Below are positions 18,935-26,899 of a stretch of DNA of 64,000 bases, piece by piece (position 1 is the first letter of the stretch; every line of letters starts with the position of its first letter). Source of the DNA: Sphingomicrobium flavum (GTDB taxonomy: Bacteria > Pseudomonadota > Alphaproteobacteria > Sphingomonadales > Sphingomonadaceae). The notes under the pieces were generated by a model. That model was not told where the DNA came from, made no database searches, and was given only the letters and a program-made list of their open reading frames with translations. The stretch is from assembly GCF_024721605.1 (NCBI RefSeq), contig NZ_CP102630.1, forward strand, positions 806,001-870,000, written 5' to 3'. The position numbers were made by a program, and so were the translations under genes.

Positions 18935-20746
18935 TTAGTCGCCGATTGCGAGGGATGCCAGTCTTTCATTCATTTCCGCGCGAGCCGCATGATATTTTTG
19001 CTGCTCGGCGAAGGCATCTTCATCACCTTCGGCCAACCTTTTTGTTGCCTCGTCCAGTGCCTGCTCGATCTCCGCGGTTGCGGCGATCGCTTCCAGGGCC
19101 AGTGCCAGGTCTCTCGCGGCGATCCCCGGATCGCTGTCCGCGCGCGTGAAACTGAACCCCATTGACGATTTGGGCGGCGCGCCCAGACCATCGGCTGCCA
19201 ATATGGTGGCAATGCCCTGCCGATCAAGCTTTTCTCCCGAAAAAGCTGCATCGACCAATTTATCGCGCATCCGGGCGAGCGGCGGGTCGCTGATCGGCAG
19301 TGCCGCCAGCGTCTCGACATCCTCTCCGATTGCCTCGGGAAACAGCGCATATCCGCGCAATAATGCCGCCACCTGCGGCCCGCCTATCCCGGTGCGCGCA
19401 ATGTCCTTGGCCGCCGCGCTGGCGGGCGGATTGGGAGGCACCCAGCGCCCACCTTTTTGCTGCCAGCGGGGGGAGGATCGCGTCTCGCCGCGGCCCAGCA
19501 ACTTGTCGAACCGCGCCATCCATTCTTCGCGGTAAAGTTGCGACAGGCTGGGATCCTCGATCGATTTCGCATGGGCGAACAATCGCTGCTTGAGGCCGGC
19601 GCGCGCTTCGGGCGTGGTCAACGGCGATGCATCGCGCTCATGCCGCCACAGCCGCTCCACCAGCGGCTCGGCATTTTTCAATAAGGCTTCGAATGCCTCC
19701 TTGCCGCCCTGGTTGACGATATCGTCGGGATCCGTCCCGGCCGGCAACTCGACAAAGCTCAGGCTGCGCTGCGGGCCGAGCAAGGGCAGGGCGCGTTCGG
19801 CCGCGCGGATCGCCGCCTTCTGCCCCGCCGCATCGCCGTCAAAGCACAGGATCGGCGCTTCGCTCAGCCGCCACAGCAGATGCAACTGCCCCTCGGTCAG
19901 CGCGGTGCCCAATGGCGCCACCGCTTCGCCAATCCCCGCCTGGTCCAGCGCGATTACATCCATATAGCCTTCGACCACGATGATGCGGTCGCTCTGTCGC
20001 GAGGCGGGCGCGGCAAGGTCAAGATTGTAAAGCTGACGTCCCTTGTCGAAGAGCGGGGTTTCCGGGCTGTTGAGATATTTAGGCTCGCCATCGCCGATGA
20101 TCCGCCCGCCAAAGGCAATGGTGCGCCCGCGCGGATCGCGGATCGGGATCATCAGCCGCCCGCGGAAGCGGTCATAGGGATCGCGATCCTCGGGATTGAT
20201 CAGCATCCCGCTCTCGATCAGCTTTTCCGTACCGAAGCGATCCAGCGCGGCCTTCAGCTTGCCCTTGCTGTCGGGCGCAAAACCGATGCCGAATTTCTGC
20301 ACAGTCGCCGCGCTCAGACCGCGCCGCTTGAGATAAAGGCGCGCCTCGCTGCCCTCGATGCCGCCCAATTGTTCGCGATACCATAGAGCCGCTGCCTCGG
20401 TCACATCGACCAGGCTGGCGCGGCGTTCGGCGCGTTCCTGCGCCTGCGGATCGGGGGCAGGGACTTCCATCCCGGCCTTGCCCGCCAATTCCTTGACCGC
20501 ATCCATGAAGCCAAGCCCGCGCGCATCGGTCAGGTAGCGAATGGCATCGCCATGCGCCCCGCAGCCAAAGCAGTGATAAAACTGCTTCTCGTCATTGATG
20601 TAGAAGCTCGGCGTCTTCTCATTATGGAAGGGGCAACAGGCCTTATATTCCTTGCCCGCCCTGATCAGCTTTACATCGGCCCCGATGACCTGGCTGACAC
20701 GCGTACGCGCACGCAATTCATCGAGGAAGGCAGGGGAAAGAGACAT
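18935..20746 (-). CDS. dnaG: DNA primase DnaG
   Basis: DnaG makes RNA primers for replication. The 603-residue product has the CHC2 zinc finger (C38, H41, C59, C62), the RNA-polymerase core with TOPRIM motifs EGYMD (about 258) and DGDAAGQ (about 303), and a C-terminal DnaB-interacting helical region. rpoD follows after 11 bp. The start ATG at 20746 has its GGAGG Shine-Dalgarno 7 bp upstream, and this site falls inside a palindromic repeat whose other arm can pair with it (see 20751-20786). Confidence 0.98.
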
Positions 20747-20810: not shown

Positions 20811-21128
20811 CTAATCGTTCGTCCCGAGCGAAGTCGAGGGGCGCTCGCTCGGTGGCTTCGAAAAATACGAAGTCAGGTCCCAATCGCCATTGATAAGTGC
20901 GTGCTTCTTTGCGCGCGACCAATTCTTGATCCGTCGCTCGGCTTCCAGTGCTTCGATCCGGGTTGGAAATTCTTGGCTCCAAACCAATTCGATTGGGAGT
21001 CTTCGCCTCGTCCAATCGGAACCTTTACCAGCATGATGCTGACCAATGCGATATTCGAGCCTGTCTGTATGACCCGTATAAAAGGAGCCGTCGCTGCAAC
21101 GCAGAATGTAGCAAGTGAATTCCAGCAT
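20811..21128 (-). CDS. GIY-YIG nuclease family protein
   Basis: A 105-residue single-domain GIY-YIG endonuclease of the UvrC N-terminal/YhbQ type. The signature appears as CYILRCSDGSFYTGHT (GIY and YIG positions), followed by RIGQHHAGKGSDWTRRR and the catalytic Glu in ALEAERRIKNWSRAKK. The last ten residues are encoded by a dispersed repeat, and the ATG at 21128 lies 3 bp from another copy of that repeat, leaving no separate ribosome-binding site. Functions of these small nucleases are mostly unknown: repair, homing or mobility of repeats are possible. It interrupts the yqeY-dnaG-rpoD order. Confidence 0.85.
   Translation of the reverse strand: MLEFTCYILRCSDGSFYTGHTDRLEYRIGQHHAGKGSDWTRRRLPIELVWSQEFPTRIEALEAERRIKNWSRAKKHALINGDWDLTSYFSKPPSERPSTSLGTND
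20813..20843. repeat. Palindromic repeat family, copy 1 (3' flank of GIY-YIG gene)
   Basis: A 31-bp sequence (begins AATCGTTCGTCCCGAGC, ends GTCGAGGGGCG) identical to 21131-21161 and, over 28 bp, to the inverted arm at 22413-22440 inside carA. On the minus strand it encodes the last residues (RPSTSLGTND) of the GIY-YIG protein; the stop codon lies at its edge. Confidence 0.85.
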
Positions 21129-21130
21129 CA

Positions 21131-21209
21131 AATCGTTCGTCCCGAGCGAAGTCGAGGGGCGGTGGCGCAAACGCCCTTCGACTGCGCTGCGCTCCGCTCA
21201 GGACGAACG
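21131..21209. repeat. Palindromic repeat pair, copy 2 (REPIN-like)
   Basis: A 31-bp repeat (21131-21161) identical to copy 1, a 10-bp spacer, then an inverted partner (21172-21209) of the same family with a 10-bp internal expansion. The pair would fold into a hairpin of about 76 nt. It lies between the stop of yqeY and the start of the GIY-YIG gene. Confidence 0.85.
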
Positions 21210-21225
21210 GATAGGGGGTGGATGG

Positions 21226-21678
21226 TCACCCCGCCAGGACGCGCTTCGCAATCGCGCTCGCCTTTGCAGGCTCGATCGTCGCGCCGTGGCGGGCGCGCAC
21301 TTCGCCCATGACGCGGCCCATATCCTTCATGCCTTCCGCGCCCGTATCGGCGATGATGGCACGCAGCGCAGCTTCGGCTTCCTCGTCGCTCATCTGCGCG
21401 GGCAGGAAGGTTTCGATAACGGCGATTTCCGCTTCTTCGGTCAGCGCGCGATCTTCCGCGCCTCCCTTGCGGTACATTTCTGCCGATTCGCGGCGCTGCT
21501 TGACCATCTTCTGCAGGACCGCAGTGATATGGGCATCATCGTCGGCAATCTCCTGCCCACGCATTTCAATGTCCTTATTCTGCAGTTCCGAATTGATCAG
21601 GCGAATGGCGGCGAGCTTTTCCATCGCCTTGGTCTTCATCGCCTCGATCTGCGCAGCCTTCAACGTGTCGCGAATCAT
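21226..21678 (-). CDS. GatB/YqeY domain protein
   Basis: A 150-residue YqeY-family protein resembling the tRNA-binding tail domain of the GatB amidotransferase subunit. Typical segments are MIRDTLKAAQIEAMKTKA at the start, LRLI-like AAIRLINSELQNKDIE, LQKMVKQRRESAEMY, and the C-terminal MGRVMGEVRARHGATIEPAKASAIAKRVL. ATG at 21678 is preferred because GAGGA stands 6 bp upstream. It is divergent from carA and precedes the GIY-YIG, dnaG and rpoD genes on the same strand. The biochemical role of YqeY is not established. Confidence 0.92.
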   Translation of the reverse strand: MIRDTLKAAQIEAMKTKAMEKLAAIRLINSELQNKDIEMRGQEIADDDAHITAVLQKMVKQRRESAEMYRKGGAEDRALTEEAEIAVIETFLPAQMSDEEAEAALRAIIADTGAEGMKDMGRVMGEVRARHGATIEPAKASAIAKRVLAG

Positions 21679-21818
21679 CGCTGTCCTCATGTCTTTTTCG
21701 GAAAGAATCTTCCTAGCTGGAAAATAGTTGGAATCACAGCGTTGACGTCGCCCTGAATGCCCCGTAGGCGCTGTGGCTTAGCGACATCGTTAGACCACCT
21801 TTACGGAGACCTCGCCCC

Positions 21819-23084
21819 ATGGCCGAGCCGACACCCGCGCGCGCACCCCAACCCCAAGGCGCTACGGGAGTCATCGTCTTCGCCGATGGACGCACCATCT
21901 GGGGCAGGGGTTTTGGTGCCACGGGCGAGACGGTGGGAGAGCTTTGCTTCCACACCGCCATGACCGGTTATCAGGAAATCATGACCGATCCGTCCTTTGC
22001 GCGGCAGGTGATCGCCTTCACCTTCCCGCATATCGGCAATGTCGGCGCCAATGAGGAAGATGTGGAAGCGGACGCCGCCCATGCGCTGGGCGCCATTGTG
22101 CGCGAAGCGGTGACCAGCCCTTCCAACTTCCGCTCCGACTGCGATTTTCCCTGCTGGATGCGCGATCATGGCCGCATCGGCATCAGCGGCGTCGATACGC
22201 GCGCCCTGACCCGTCTTGTCCGCAAGGACGGCCCGCCCACCATCGCCATCGCCCACAGCGCCAACGGCAAGTTCGATCTCGACAAGCTGCAGAAGATGGC
22301 CGCCGATTGGCCCGGCCTTGAAGGCATGGATCTGGCGAAAGAGGTGTCCACCAAACAACTTTTCAACTGGAGCGGGGGCAAGTGGGAGCTAGGCGAAGGC
22401 TATTCTTTCGAACGCCCCTCGACTTCGCTCGGGACGAACGGCGGTGGGGATGATGCAGAAGATTCCGTTCGTCCTGAGCGTAGCCCACAGGGCGAAGTCG
22501 AAGGGCGCGTGCAAGACAGTAACCGCCCCCATGTCGTCGCGGTAGACTATGGCGCCAAGCGCAACATCTTCCGCAACCTGGTCGAAGCCGGAGCACGCGT
22601 CACCGTCGTCCCGGCAGAGGCCAGCTTCGAGGACATCATGAAGCATGAGCCCGACGGCTTCTTCCTCTCCAACGGCCCCGGCGACCCCGCCGCGACGGGC
22701 CAATATGCCATTCCAGTGATCAAGCAGCTGCTGGAAACCGGCAAACCGCTCTTCGGCATCTGCCTCGGCCACCAGCTCCTTGCGCTCGCCGTGGGCGGCC
22801 AGACCGAAAAGATGTTCCAGGGCCACCGCGGTGCCAACCACCCGGTCCAGCGCTGCGAAGATGGCACCGTGGAAATCACCAGCATGAATCACGGTTTTGC
22901 GGTCAAACGCGAAGGCCTGCCGAACAACGTCAAGGAAACCCACGTCAGCCTGTTCGACGACACCAATTGCGGCATCGAACTGACCGACCGCCCCGCCTTC
23001 AGCGTCCAATACCACCCCGAAGCCAGCCCGGGCCCGATGGATAGCTTCTATCTGTTCGAGAAATTCGTGGGGATGATGCGGTGA
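21819..23084 (+). CDS. carA: Carbamoyl-phosphate synthase small subunit with in-frame repeat insertion
   Basis: CarA is the glutamine amidotransferase subunit that feeds ammonia to CarB for arginine and pyrimidine synthesis. The N-terminal domain begins near GVIVFADGRTIWGRGFG and contains GELCFHTAMTGYQEI; the class I GATase domain has the nucleophile in GICLGHQLL (Cys near 315) and YHPEASPGP (His/Glu near 403). Between the domains, residues about 199-230 are encoded by an inverted repeat pair (RPSTSLGTN ... RPERSPQGEVEGR), an insertion absent from CarA proteins as I know them, and the frame continues after it. GGAGA precedes the ATG. The stop overlaps the GTG of a small lipoprotein gene. Confidence 0.95.
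   Translation: MAEPTPARAPQPQGATGVIVFADGRTIWGRGFGATGETVGELCFHTAMTGYQEIMTDPSFARQVIAFTFPHIGNVGANEEDVEADAAHALGAIVREAVTSPSNFRSDCDFPCWMRDHGRIGISGVDTRALTRLVRKDGPPTIAIAHSANGKFDLDKLQKMAADWPGLEGMDLAKEVSTKQLFNWSGGKWELGEGYSFERPSTSLGTNGGGDDAEDSVRPERSPQGEVEGRVQDSNRPHVVAVDYGAKRNIFRNLVEAGARVTVVPAEASFEDIMKHEPDGFFLSNGPGDPAATGQYAIPVIKQLLETGKPLFGICLGHQLLALAVGGQTEKMFQGHRGANHPVQRCEDGTVEITSMNHGFAVKREGLPNNVKETHVSLFDDTNCGIELTDRPAFSVQYHPEASPGPMDSFYLFEKFVGMMR
22413..22507. repeat. Palindromic repeat pair, copy 3, inserted in frame in carA
   Basis: Left arm 22413-22440 is the exact reverse complement of the 28-bp core of copies 1 and 2; right arm 22466-22507 is the same family in opposite orientation with a 14-bp expansion; the spacer is 25 bp. 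The unit is translated as a linker between the two CarA domains without a stop or frameshift. Confidence 0.88.
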
Positions 23085-23542: not shown

Positions 23543-26500
23543 ATGCCCGCACGCACAGACATTTCCTCCATCCTTGTCATCGGCGCTGGTCCCATTGTTA
23601 TCGGGCAGGCGGCGGAGTTCGATTATTCCGGTTCGCAGGCCATCAAGGCGCTGAAGGAGGAGGGCTATCGGGTCATCGTGGTGAACTCCAACCCCGCGAC
23701 CATCATGACCGATCCGGGCATGGCCGATGCCACCTATGTCGAGCCCATCACCGCGCGCGTTGTCGAAAAGATCATCGAGAAGGAAAAGCCCGATGCCGTG
23801 CTGCCCACCATGGGCGGCCAGACGGCGCTCAATTGCGCGCTGACGCTGAACAAGCTGGGCATTCTTGAAAAGCACAATGTCCAGCTGATCGGCGCCCAGG
23901 CCGAAGCCATCGACAAGGCCGAGGATCGCGAAAAATTCCGCAAGGCGATGGACAAGATCGGGCTCGAAAGCGCGCGCAGCGGCATCGCCCACAGCCTTGA
24001 AGATGCGTTGAAGGTGCTGGAGACCACCGGGCTTCCCTCAATCATCCGCCCCAGCTTCACGCTTGGCGGCACCGGCGGCGGCGTTGCCTATAACCGCGAG
24101 GAATTCGAAGCCATCGTCAAGGGCGGCCTCGATGCCTCGCCCACCAACGAAGTGCTGATCGAAGAAAGCCTGCTGGGCTGGAAGGAATATGAGATGGAAG
24201 TCGTGCGCGACCGCGCCGACAATGCCATCATCATCTGCTCGATCGAAAATGTCGATCCGATGGGTGTCCATACCGGCGACAGCATCACCGTCGCCCCCGC
24301 GCTGACGCTGACCGACAAGGAATATCAGCGCATGCGCACCGCCTCGATCGCGGTGCTGCGCGAAATTGGCGTGGAAACGGGCGGCTCCAATGTCCAGTTC
24401 GCGGTTAATCCCAAGGACGGTCGCATGATCGTCATCGAGATGAACCCGCGCGTGTCTCGCTCCTCTGCGCTCGCGTCCAAGGCCACCGGCTTTCCCATCG
24501 CGCGCGTCGCCGCCAAGCTGGCGGTCGGCTATACGCTCGATGAAATCTCCAACGACATTACCGGCGGCGCCACGCCCGCCAGTTTTGAGCCCACCATCGA
24601 TTATGTCGTCACCAAGATCCCGCGCTTCGCCTTCGAAAAGTTCGCCGGATCGCCGGCGCTGCTGTCCACCGCGATGAAATCGGTCGGCGAAGTCATGGCC
24701 ATCGGCCGCAACTTTGCCGAAAGCTTCCAGAAGGCGCTGCGCGGCACCGAGACCGGCCTGATCGGGCTCGACCGCGTCGAGGAATTGTTCGGCGCGCCGG
24801 AGAGCGAGATCGAAAATGCGCTCGGCCGCGCCAACCCGTTCCGCATCCTCGTCGCCGCCGAAGCCATGCGCCAGGGCTTCTCGGTCGAACGAGTGCACAA
24901 GATTTCGGGGTTCGATCCCTGGTTCCTCGAGCGCATCGGCGAATTGCTCGATGCCGAAATGCAGGTGCGCAGCGATGGCCTGCCCAATGATGCTGCCGGG
25001 ATGCGCCGCCTGAAAGCCAAGGGCTTTTCCGACGCGCGCCTTGCCCAGCTCTCCGCGCGCTCGGCCCATTTCGGGCTGGAATCCAAGGCCCAGGGTTCGG
25101 GCGTCGTCCATGACGCCATGAAAGCGATGACCGGCGGCGTCACCGAAGTTGAAGTGCGCGCCCTGCGCCGCAAGCTGGGCGTGCGCCCTGTCTTCAAGCG
25201 GATCGACAGCTGCGCCGCCGAATTCGATGCCGTCACGCCCTACATGTATTCCACCTATGAAGCCCCGCTCTTCGCAGAGCCCGAAGATGAGGCGCAGGTG
25301 TCCGACCGCCAGAAGGTCATGATCCTTGGCGGCGGCCCCAACCGCATCGGCCAGGGCATCGAATTCGACTATTGCTGCGTCCATGCCGCCTTCGCGCTCG
25401 GCCGCAAGCGGGAAGGGGATGAGGGCGAACATGAAGGGGAGGGACATGAAGTCATCATGGTCAACTGCAACCCGGAAACCGTCTCGACCGACCCCGACAC
25501 TTCCGACCGCCTCTATTTCGAGCCGCTGACCACCGAAGACGTGCTCGAAATCGTCGAGACCGAACGGCAGGCGGGCACGCTCAAGGGCGTGATCGTCCAA
25601 TTGGGCGGCCAAACCCCGCTGAAACTTGCTGCGGATCTGGAAGACGCCGGCGTCCCCATCCTCGGCACCGATCCCGACAGCATCGACCTTGCCGAAGACC
25701 GCGAACGCTTTGCCGCCTTGGTCAACAAATTGAAATTGAAGCAACCCGAAAACGGCATCGCCCGCAGCCGCGATGAAGCCATCGCGGTCGCCGAAAAGAT
25801 TGGCTATCCCGTCCTCCTGCGCCCCAGCTACGTCCTCGGCGGCCGCGCGATGGAAGTGGTCGATGGCCCTGAACAGCTCGACCATTATATCAACACTGCC
25901 GTACAAGTATCTGGTTCTTCACCCGTTTTGATCGACCGCTATCTGCGCGACGCTATCGAAGTCGATGTCGATGCCATCTGCGACGGGGAAGCCGTCGCGG
26001 TGACCGGCATCCTCCAGCATATCGAGGAAGCCGGCGTCCATTCGGGCGACAGCGCCTGTTCCATTCCGCCCTTCAGCCTGCCGCCCAAGACCATCGCGGA
26101 GATCGAGCGGGCGACCGAGGCGCTGGGCAAGGCGCTCAATGTGCGCGGGCTGATGAATGTCCAATATGCCATCAAGGAAGGCCGCCTCTACCTGATCGAG
26201 GTCAATCCGCGTGCCTCGCGCACCGTGCCCTTCGTCGCCAAGGCCATCGGGCGCCCGATCGCCAAGATCGCCGCCAAGGTCATGGCCGGCGCGAAATTGT
26301 CGCAGTTCGACGCCATCGACCGCGACATCGATCACATCGCGATCAAGGAGCCCGTTTTCCCCTTCGCCCGCTTCCCCGGCACCGATCCCGTACTCGGCCC
26401 GGAAATGAAGTCGACCGGCGAAGTCATGGGCATTGCCGGCAATTTCGATGCCGCCTTCGCAAAGGCGCAGCTGGGTGAGGGGACGCGGCTGCCGACCAGC

Positions 26501-26899
26501 GGCACCGTCTTCATCTCGGTCAAGGAAGCCGACAAGAAGCATATCCTGCCGACCGCGCAGATGATGGACATGGCGGGCTTTCACATCATCGCCACCGATG
26601 GCACCGCAGCCTTCCTGTCGGACAATGGTGTGCGCGTCGAACGGGTGAACAAGGTTGCGCAGGGCCGCCCCCATATCGTCGACAAGTTGAAGGACGGAGA
26701 CGTCAATCTGGTCTTCAACACGACCGAGGGTTGGCAGTCCCTGAAGGACAGTCAGGCCATCCGCGAGGCAGCGCTCAAGAACCATGTGCCCTACTTCACC
26801 ACGGTGGGCGCCTGCCAGGTGGTTGCGCGCATCATCGGCAAGGCCGATCCGGAAACTCTTGAAGTTCGCTCGCTACAGTCCTATTATTCGGCAAGATAA
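23543..26899 (+). CDS. carB: Carbamoyl-phosphate synthase large subunit
   Basis: The ATP-grasp subunit making carbamoyl phosphate, 1118 residues, with both homologous halves: N-half [19 protein letters not shown] and [10 protein letters not shown]-half [17 protein letters not shown] and the second ATP-grasp ([31 protein letters not shown]), then the C-terminal MGS-like regulatory domain ([13 protein letters not shown] onward). An acidic insertion (about residues 625-637, [11 protein letters not shown]) breaks the otherwise conserved AFAL...[11 protein letters not shown] stretch of the second half. It directly abuts the upstream lipoprotein gene. Length is slightly above the usual 1070-1110. 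Confidence 0.97.

Follow-up and report, generated by a model that had tools for sequence, protein, structure and literature searches.

The carA gene of Sphingomicrobium flavum carries an in-frame pair of inverted palindromes in the linker between the two domains of its product, and we read this 96-bp insert, with a probability of roughly 70%, as a non-autonomous, MITE-like derivative of a palindrome-GIY-YIG-palindrome element, of which the cognate nuclease would have promoted the copying and which would have been kept in a disordered linker. The features concerned, all located in the window (the whole stretch of DNA that was analysed, 64,000 nucleotides of contig NZ_CP102630.1), are listed in Table 1. 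The carA frame is open throughout, with 421 codons, no stops and no frameshifts, and the product was identified as CarA by Pfam and NCBIfam (CPSase_sm_chain at residues 20-140, GATase at 241-417, TIGR01368 with 410 bits). The sequence-only reading had placed an inverted repeat pair in frame inside carA, with its end at 22507; the pair was recovered, and its end lies 1 nt further. The insert translation runs RPSTSLGTN...VRPERSPQGEVEG, and the insert region encodes ...RPSTSLGTNGGGDDAEDSVRPERSPQGEVEG... as part of the protein. The two arms are complementary at 27 of 29 positions, with arm 2 additionally exhibiting a 14-nt extra loop. An assembly artefact is unlikely, as the sequence is a single complete contig, the frame is intact and like inserts occur in the same codon region of independent assemblies.

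Table 1. Features of the carA insert and of the neighbouring GIY-YIG element, in window positions.
Feature	Position	Strand	Evidence or remark
dnaG primase	18935..20746	-	
Solitary GIY-YIG nuclease gene, 119 aa	20811..21170	-	PF01541, E 1.6e-18
GIY-YIG element, left end repeat, CGTTCGTCCCGAGCGAAGTCGAGGGGCG	20816..20843	+	
GIY-YIG element, inner right repeat	21134..21161	+	
GIY-YIG element, outer right repeat, extended-loop type	21172..21211	-	
yqeY, separating the GIY-YIG element from carA	21226..21690	-	PF09424
carA (carbamoyl-phosphate synthase small chain), 421 aa, carrying the insert	21819..23084	+	ORF list, Pfam/NCBIfam
Inverted palindrome pair, in frame in carA	22413..22508	.	net +96 nt/+32 aa vs 11-aa linker of close relatives
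Insert arm 1, CGCCCCTCGACTTCGCTCGGGACGAACGG	22413..22441	-	28/28 = reverse complement of left GIY-YIG end repeat
Spacer separating the insert arms	22442..22462	.	
Insert arm 2, TTCCGTTCGTCCTGAGCGTAGCCCACAGGGCGAAGTCGAAGGGCGC	22463..22508	+	matches right outer GIY-YIG end repeat including extended loop (4-nt gap)
carB	23543..26899	+	

The locus reads dnaG - GIY-YIG - yqeY - carA - carB, with the GIY-YIG element occupying the dnaG-yqeY gap, and the arms of the CarA insert match the two unlike end repeats of this element, located 1.3 kb upstream. The 23-nt core is present in three copies in the window at ≤3 mismatches (chance expectation 0), and the two copies outside carA flank the GIY-YIG gene, so that the repeat family had been assigned correctly when it was equated with the GIY-YIG flanks. 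Copies of the core are few in the genome as a whole, 9 at ≤3 mismatches, and the TTCGTCCTGAGC variant is exact at four sites, only two of which, CarA arm 2 and the right outer GIY-YIG repeat, have the extended loop. The GIY-YIG ORF itself begins and ends within repeats, both of its termini being repeat-encoded (RPSTSLGTND). The ends of a MITE are common to a longer element encoding a mobility enzyme, and both arms here match the end repeats of such a longer element; that GIY-YIG acts in mobility is inferred. The insert would consist of the two end palindromes and lack the nuclease gene, its likely source being the element copy in the dnaG-yqeY gap, and the nuclease, by analogy with RAYT and REP, probably recognises its own palindrome family and may help inverted pairs to be copied into neighbouring DNA via break repair or template switching. 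That the nuclease recognises and cuts the palindromes, how the copying proceeds, which way the transfer went and whether the insert is neutral are all matters of inference, no cleavage, binding or movement having been shown. In the CarA pair the tails point outward and in the GIY-YIG element ends the heads, so a simple internal deletion without rearrangement would not account for the insert. Two points were counted against the derivative origin, namely that no target-site duplication was established at the insert and that the palindromes could be landing sites for nuclease genes and not their ends.

An addition of about 32 residues between the two domains, tolerated in a loop, had also been proposed from the sequence, and both parts of this proposal are supported. 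The linker comprises 43 amino acids in the window CarA versus 11 in close relatives; the alignment with structurally resolved CarA chains from E. coli breaks at residue 194 (E. coli 180) and restarts at residue 228 (E. coli 183), and the AlphaFold2 model (pTM 0.82) shows two well-folded domains with mostly high pLDDT, separated by residues 197-232 with values under 50. From the alignment break and the pLDDT, the insert is predicted to form a disordered interdomain linker. Being in frame, free of stops and located in a flexible, disordered linker, the insert would be retained in CarA, as the enzyme would still be able to fold.

The CarA linkers were read at 136 loci, comprising most of 80 from the genome collection and a remainder from the GTDB genus of the window, a sample which includes Sphingomicrobium lutaoense, with a few loci unparsable and one genome counted twice. 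Long in-frame, stop-free palindromic inserts of 25-76 residues were observed in 27 of the 136 CarA and belong to five families, A (12), B (2), C (11), D (1) and E (1), one family C insert (L108) having been read by eye; a 16-residue remnant resembling a single C unit was assigned, likewise by eye, in three further CarA. Most CarA exhibit a short linker, typically of 9-16 residues and at most 22, which rules out a long linker ancestral to all sphingomonads. The earlier reading would have fallen had all sphingomonad CarA shared the linker with unrelated DNA; instead most are insert-free and the rest carry several palindrome families. In a CarA tree with the linker removed, the insert/no-insert label takes about 21 changes (gains or losses), of which, for the no-insert label, well-supported branches force 12 or more. 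The window CarA is the only insert carrier in its clade of 13, and its sisters (G026 and G039) show an empty site with the 11-residue linker, so that the window insert is lineage-specific, and the CarA linker is a recurrent landing site for palindromes. Arm 1 of the A and B inserts is nearly always translated as a (P/A)STSLGT-like peptide, a constancy suggesting, by inference, either that a benign frame is selected for or that insertion occurs in a fixed phase. The repeated use of the same site could also mean that the insert was recruited for a function, either as an mRNA hairpin pausing ribosomes between the CarA domains or as a regulatory linker, and the insert as RNA indeed forms a very stable hairpin at the domain boundary (-58 kcal/mol, z = -4.5, with 0 of 200 shuffles equally low); however, the inserts are patchy, often gained or lost, missing from most relatives, disordered, and drawn from unrelated families with unrelated lengths, which renders a recruited function very improbable.

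The presence of an insert in CarA is correlated with a nuclease gene upstream, which was found at 21 of 28 insert-bearing versus 14 of 104 insert-free loci ([[21,7],[14,90]], p = 9e-10), about 1.2-1.6 kb from carA with one at 1.9 kb; this count takes in the three short C remnants and omits loci without upstream sequence. A GIY-YIG neighbour was observed for 10 of 13 A/B inserts, and among C inserts the neighbour was DUF559 in six and GIY-YIG in three. Insert type and neighbour type agree with p 0.03 and disagree in 5 of 21 cases. For the correlation between insert and nuclease neighbour, phylogenetically independent pairs gave 7.3 agreements and 1.4 disagreements, in the same direction, with a median p of 0.07 from too few pairs, so that this correlation, once phylogeny is considered, is only suggestive. 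The no-insert genomes with an upstream nuclease have DUF559 in ten cases and GIY-YIG in four, and the two were never found together in the upstream slot among the loci read. DUF559 genes were also seen just downstream of carA in G004 (L100), G025 (L101) and G016, G004 having DUF559 on either side of carA and G025 having DUF559 on that side only, with GIY-YIG upstream. The surroundings of carA have the look of a hot zone for nuclease genes flanked by palindromes.

The flanking of nuclease genes by palindromes extends well beyond this locus. Within the genus, inverted palindromes surround 69 of 77 solitary (non-UvrC) GIY-YIG genes and none of the 77 at 700-1000 nt, as well as 25 of 28 DUF559 genes (0 of 22 far). 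Control ORFs lay between inverted palindromes in only 1 of 137 and 0 of 436 cases, ruling out a general trait of small genes or of intergenic DNA. The inverted-repeat score threshold of 32 was chosen after the first distribution was known, with medians far apart (53 versus 20), and the window GIY-YIG element scores slightly below it because of its extended-loop end. Across Alphaproteobacteria, 16 of 29 GIY-YIG and 17 of 28 DUF559 genes are flanked, with 0 for far stretches, and in a phylum-wide sample only 5 of 26 GIY-YIG genes are; a GIY-YIG gene with a flanking CGTCATTCCCGCGAAAGCGGGAATCCAG palindrome was observed outside Alphaproteobacteria, in another class of the phylum (L379 in G300). In the dnaG-yqeY slot of other species, family C palindromes flank DUF559, a different small gene. 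Each of the five CarA insert families accordingly resembles repeats that flank nuclease genes, those of GIY-YIG for A, B and D and those of DUF559 for C and E. On a GIY-YIG tree the seven palindrome families take 9 changes, where the minimum is 6 and shuffled labels take 37.6, none of 200 shuffles being as low; family A forms a single clade with full support. The tree was built on the catalytic domain alone, since the C-terminal ends of the GIY-YIG proteins extend into repeat sequence, a possible source of bias. Vertical inheritance of orthologous copies contributes to this co-variation, and its signal was not separated. In one genome (G009), two nuclease elements at two loci share 547 nt with 94% identity, the shared DNA beginning at a CGTC palindrome, and together with the tracking of families this would look like mobile units with specific ends. 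The evidence points to two small nuclease classes as so-far-unknown movers of these repeats, the nuclease action being inferred. In a more general form, to which we give somewhat better than even odds, alphaproteobacterial REP-like palindromes would be the ends of two unrelated minimal element classes, each with a solitary GIY-YIG or DUF559 nuclease recognising its own inverted palindromes, and deletion derivatives would spread as inverted pairs, preferentially nearby, repeatedly rewriting proteins such as CarA.

The claim that the family is mobile enough to enter genes gains support from the CarA inserts and from ileS of the same genome, which carries a second such insert, ASTSLGTNGEGGSANSSFVPSEVEGR, with frames as in carA. 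Relatives align without the ileS insert; in the alignment with G021, for example, a break occurs at residues 473/501, about 6 nt separating the two parts. At this locus (G000:C1:1618387-1618608 and 1620251-1620324) the in-frame pair lies ~1.6 kb from another solitary GIY-YIG gene, which is situated just upstream of ileS and has its own flanks from a different palindrome family. Single repeat copies inside genes were also noted in G008 (L195 and L215), in a PDH E2-type gene, where the copy separates the lipoyl from the E3-binding domain, and in a DNA polymerase III alpha-like (dnaE-like) gene; genome-wide intragenic counts rest on pattern searches. Such copies in ileS, the dnaE-like gene and the PDH E2 linker region would also be expected if the palindromes spread without nucleases, through slippage, gene conversion or an unrelated transposase acting in trans, with palindromes offering the nuclease genes a safe place to land and the CarA linker being the most tolerant point of an essential gene. 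Palindromes do occur far from nuclease genes, G008 having 89 palindrome hits versus three solitary GIY-YIG genes and two confirmed intragenic copies outside carA that are not near any GIY-YIG gene, and several insert-bearing genomes have no nuclease neighbour. Against this spread without nucleases stand the tracking of nuclease clades by palindrome families, the nearly universal and inverted flanking of the nuclease genes, the DNA common to two element copies that begins at a palindrome, and the match of the CarA arms to the neighbour's two unlike ends; we consider it unlikely and retain the nuclease-linked derivative as the preferred reading.

The closest working analogy for this derivative is the REPIN/RAYT system, reportedly described by Bertels and Rainey in 2011, in which an inverted pair is said to form the mobile unit, an enzyme gene to lie between the same repeats, and repeat and enzyme to co-vary. 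Inverted pairs, such co-variation and an enzyme gene between like repeats are also found here, and a REPIN, as two inverted REPs with a short spacer, is matched by the two insert arms, an architecture that would suit a classical REPIN moved by a RAYT (Y1/HUH) transposase. However, the enzyme there is an HUH tyrosine transposase, whereas here it is a GIY-YIG or DUF559 (Vsr-like) nuclease, and Y1_Tnp (RAYT-type transposase) gave no match in this genome (G000), where the expected RAYT gene flanked by repeats is accordingly lacking, and was present in only 3 of 71 genomes of the genus. RAYT was rejected as the mobiliser on this absence; only an extinct or distant RAYT could rescue that account, which is hardly tenable.

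CGTC-tagged REPs, as given in Di Nocera et al. 2013 (PMC3733652), have a terminal CGTC (or TGTC/CCTC), an 8-9 bp stem starting with AT, a 4-5 nt loop and a CCA-like tail, form head-to-head dimers in alphaproteobacteria including sphingomonads, and have catalogued intragenic copies for which flexible linkers were suggested. In these dimers, hosts and intragenic copies they resemble the repeats described here, and one CarA insert (L036) and many GIY-YIG flanks (for example CGTCATTCCCGCGAAAGCGGGAACCCAG) fit the CGTC-AT-stem-loop-CCA form, whereas the window family A has CGTTCGTC and not the canonical tag and tail; its repeat, given for the left end in Table 1, has a stem start without AT and no CCA tail, the consensus figure of that paper not having been compared. 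The repeats here also differ in flanking enzyme genes (GIY-YIG), where that paper found no dedicated transposase for CGTC REPs. It further assigns RPE-4 and RPE-6 to the CGTC REPs (PMC3733652), and the comparison with Rickettsia RPE made in the sequence-only reading holds as an analogy, both being short palindromes in frame in housekeeping genes, translated and tolerated, and carA and ileS both retaining such a palindrome within their reading frame. The Rickettsia RPE have other repeat sequences (no alignment was made), whereas here many families occur at one carA site with an apparent nuclease partner. A GIY-YIG superfamily survey makes no mention of palindromes (PMC1564403), and no literature linking GIY-YIG or DUF559 with REPs was found, which is weak evidence, as many subscription papers and bioRxiv lay outside the coverage.

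The repeated hits at the CarA site, the nuclease-neighbour correlation and the repeats as apparent ends of nuclease elements go beyond what had been read from the sequence. Two enzyme families can be named for alphaproteobacterial palindromes, present in about nine of ten cases in the genus, with GIY-YIG co-varying, and their naming makes the CGTC REP transposase question directly testable. CarA represents a natural experiment in which one linker was invaded repeatedly by unrelated palindromes, and offers a clean system for studying the gain of protein sequence by essential enzymes from selfish DNA.
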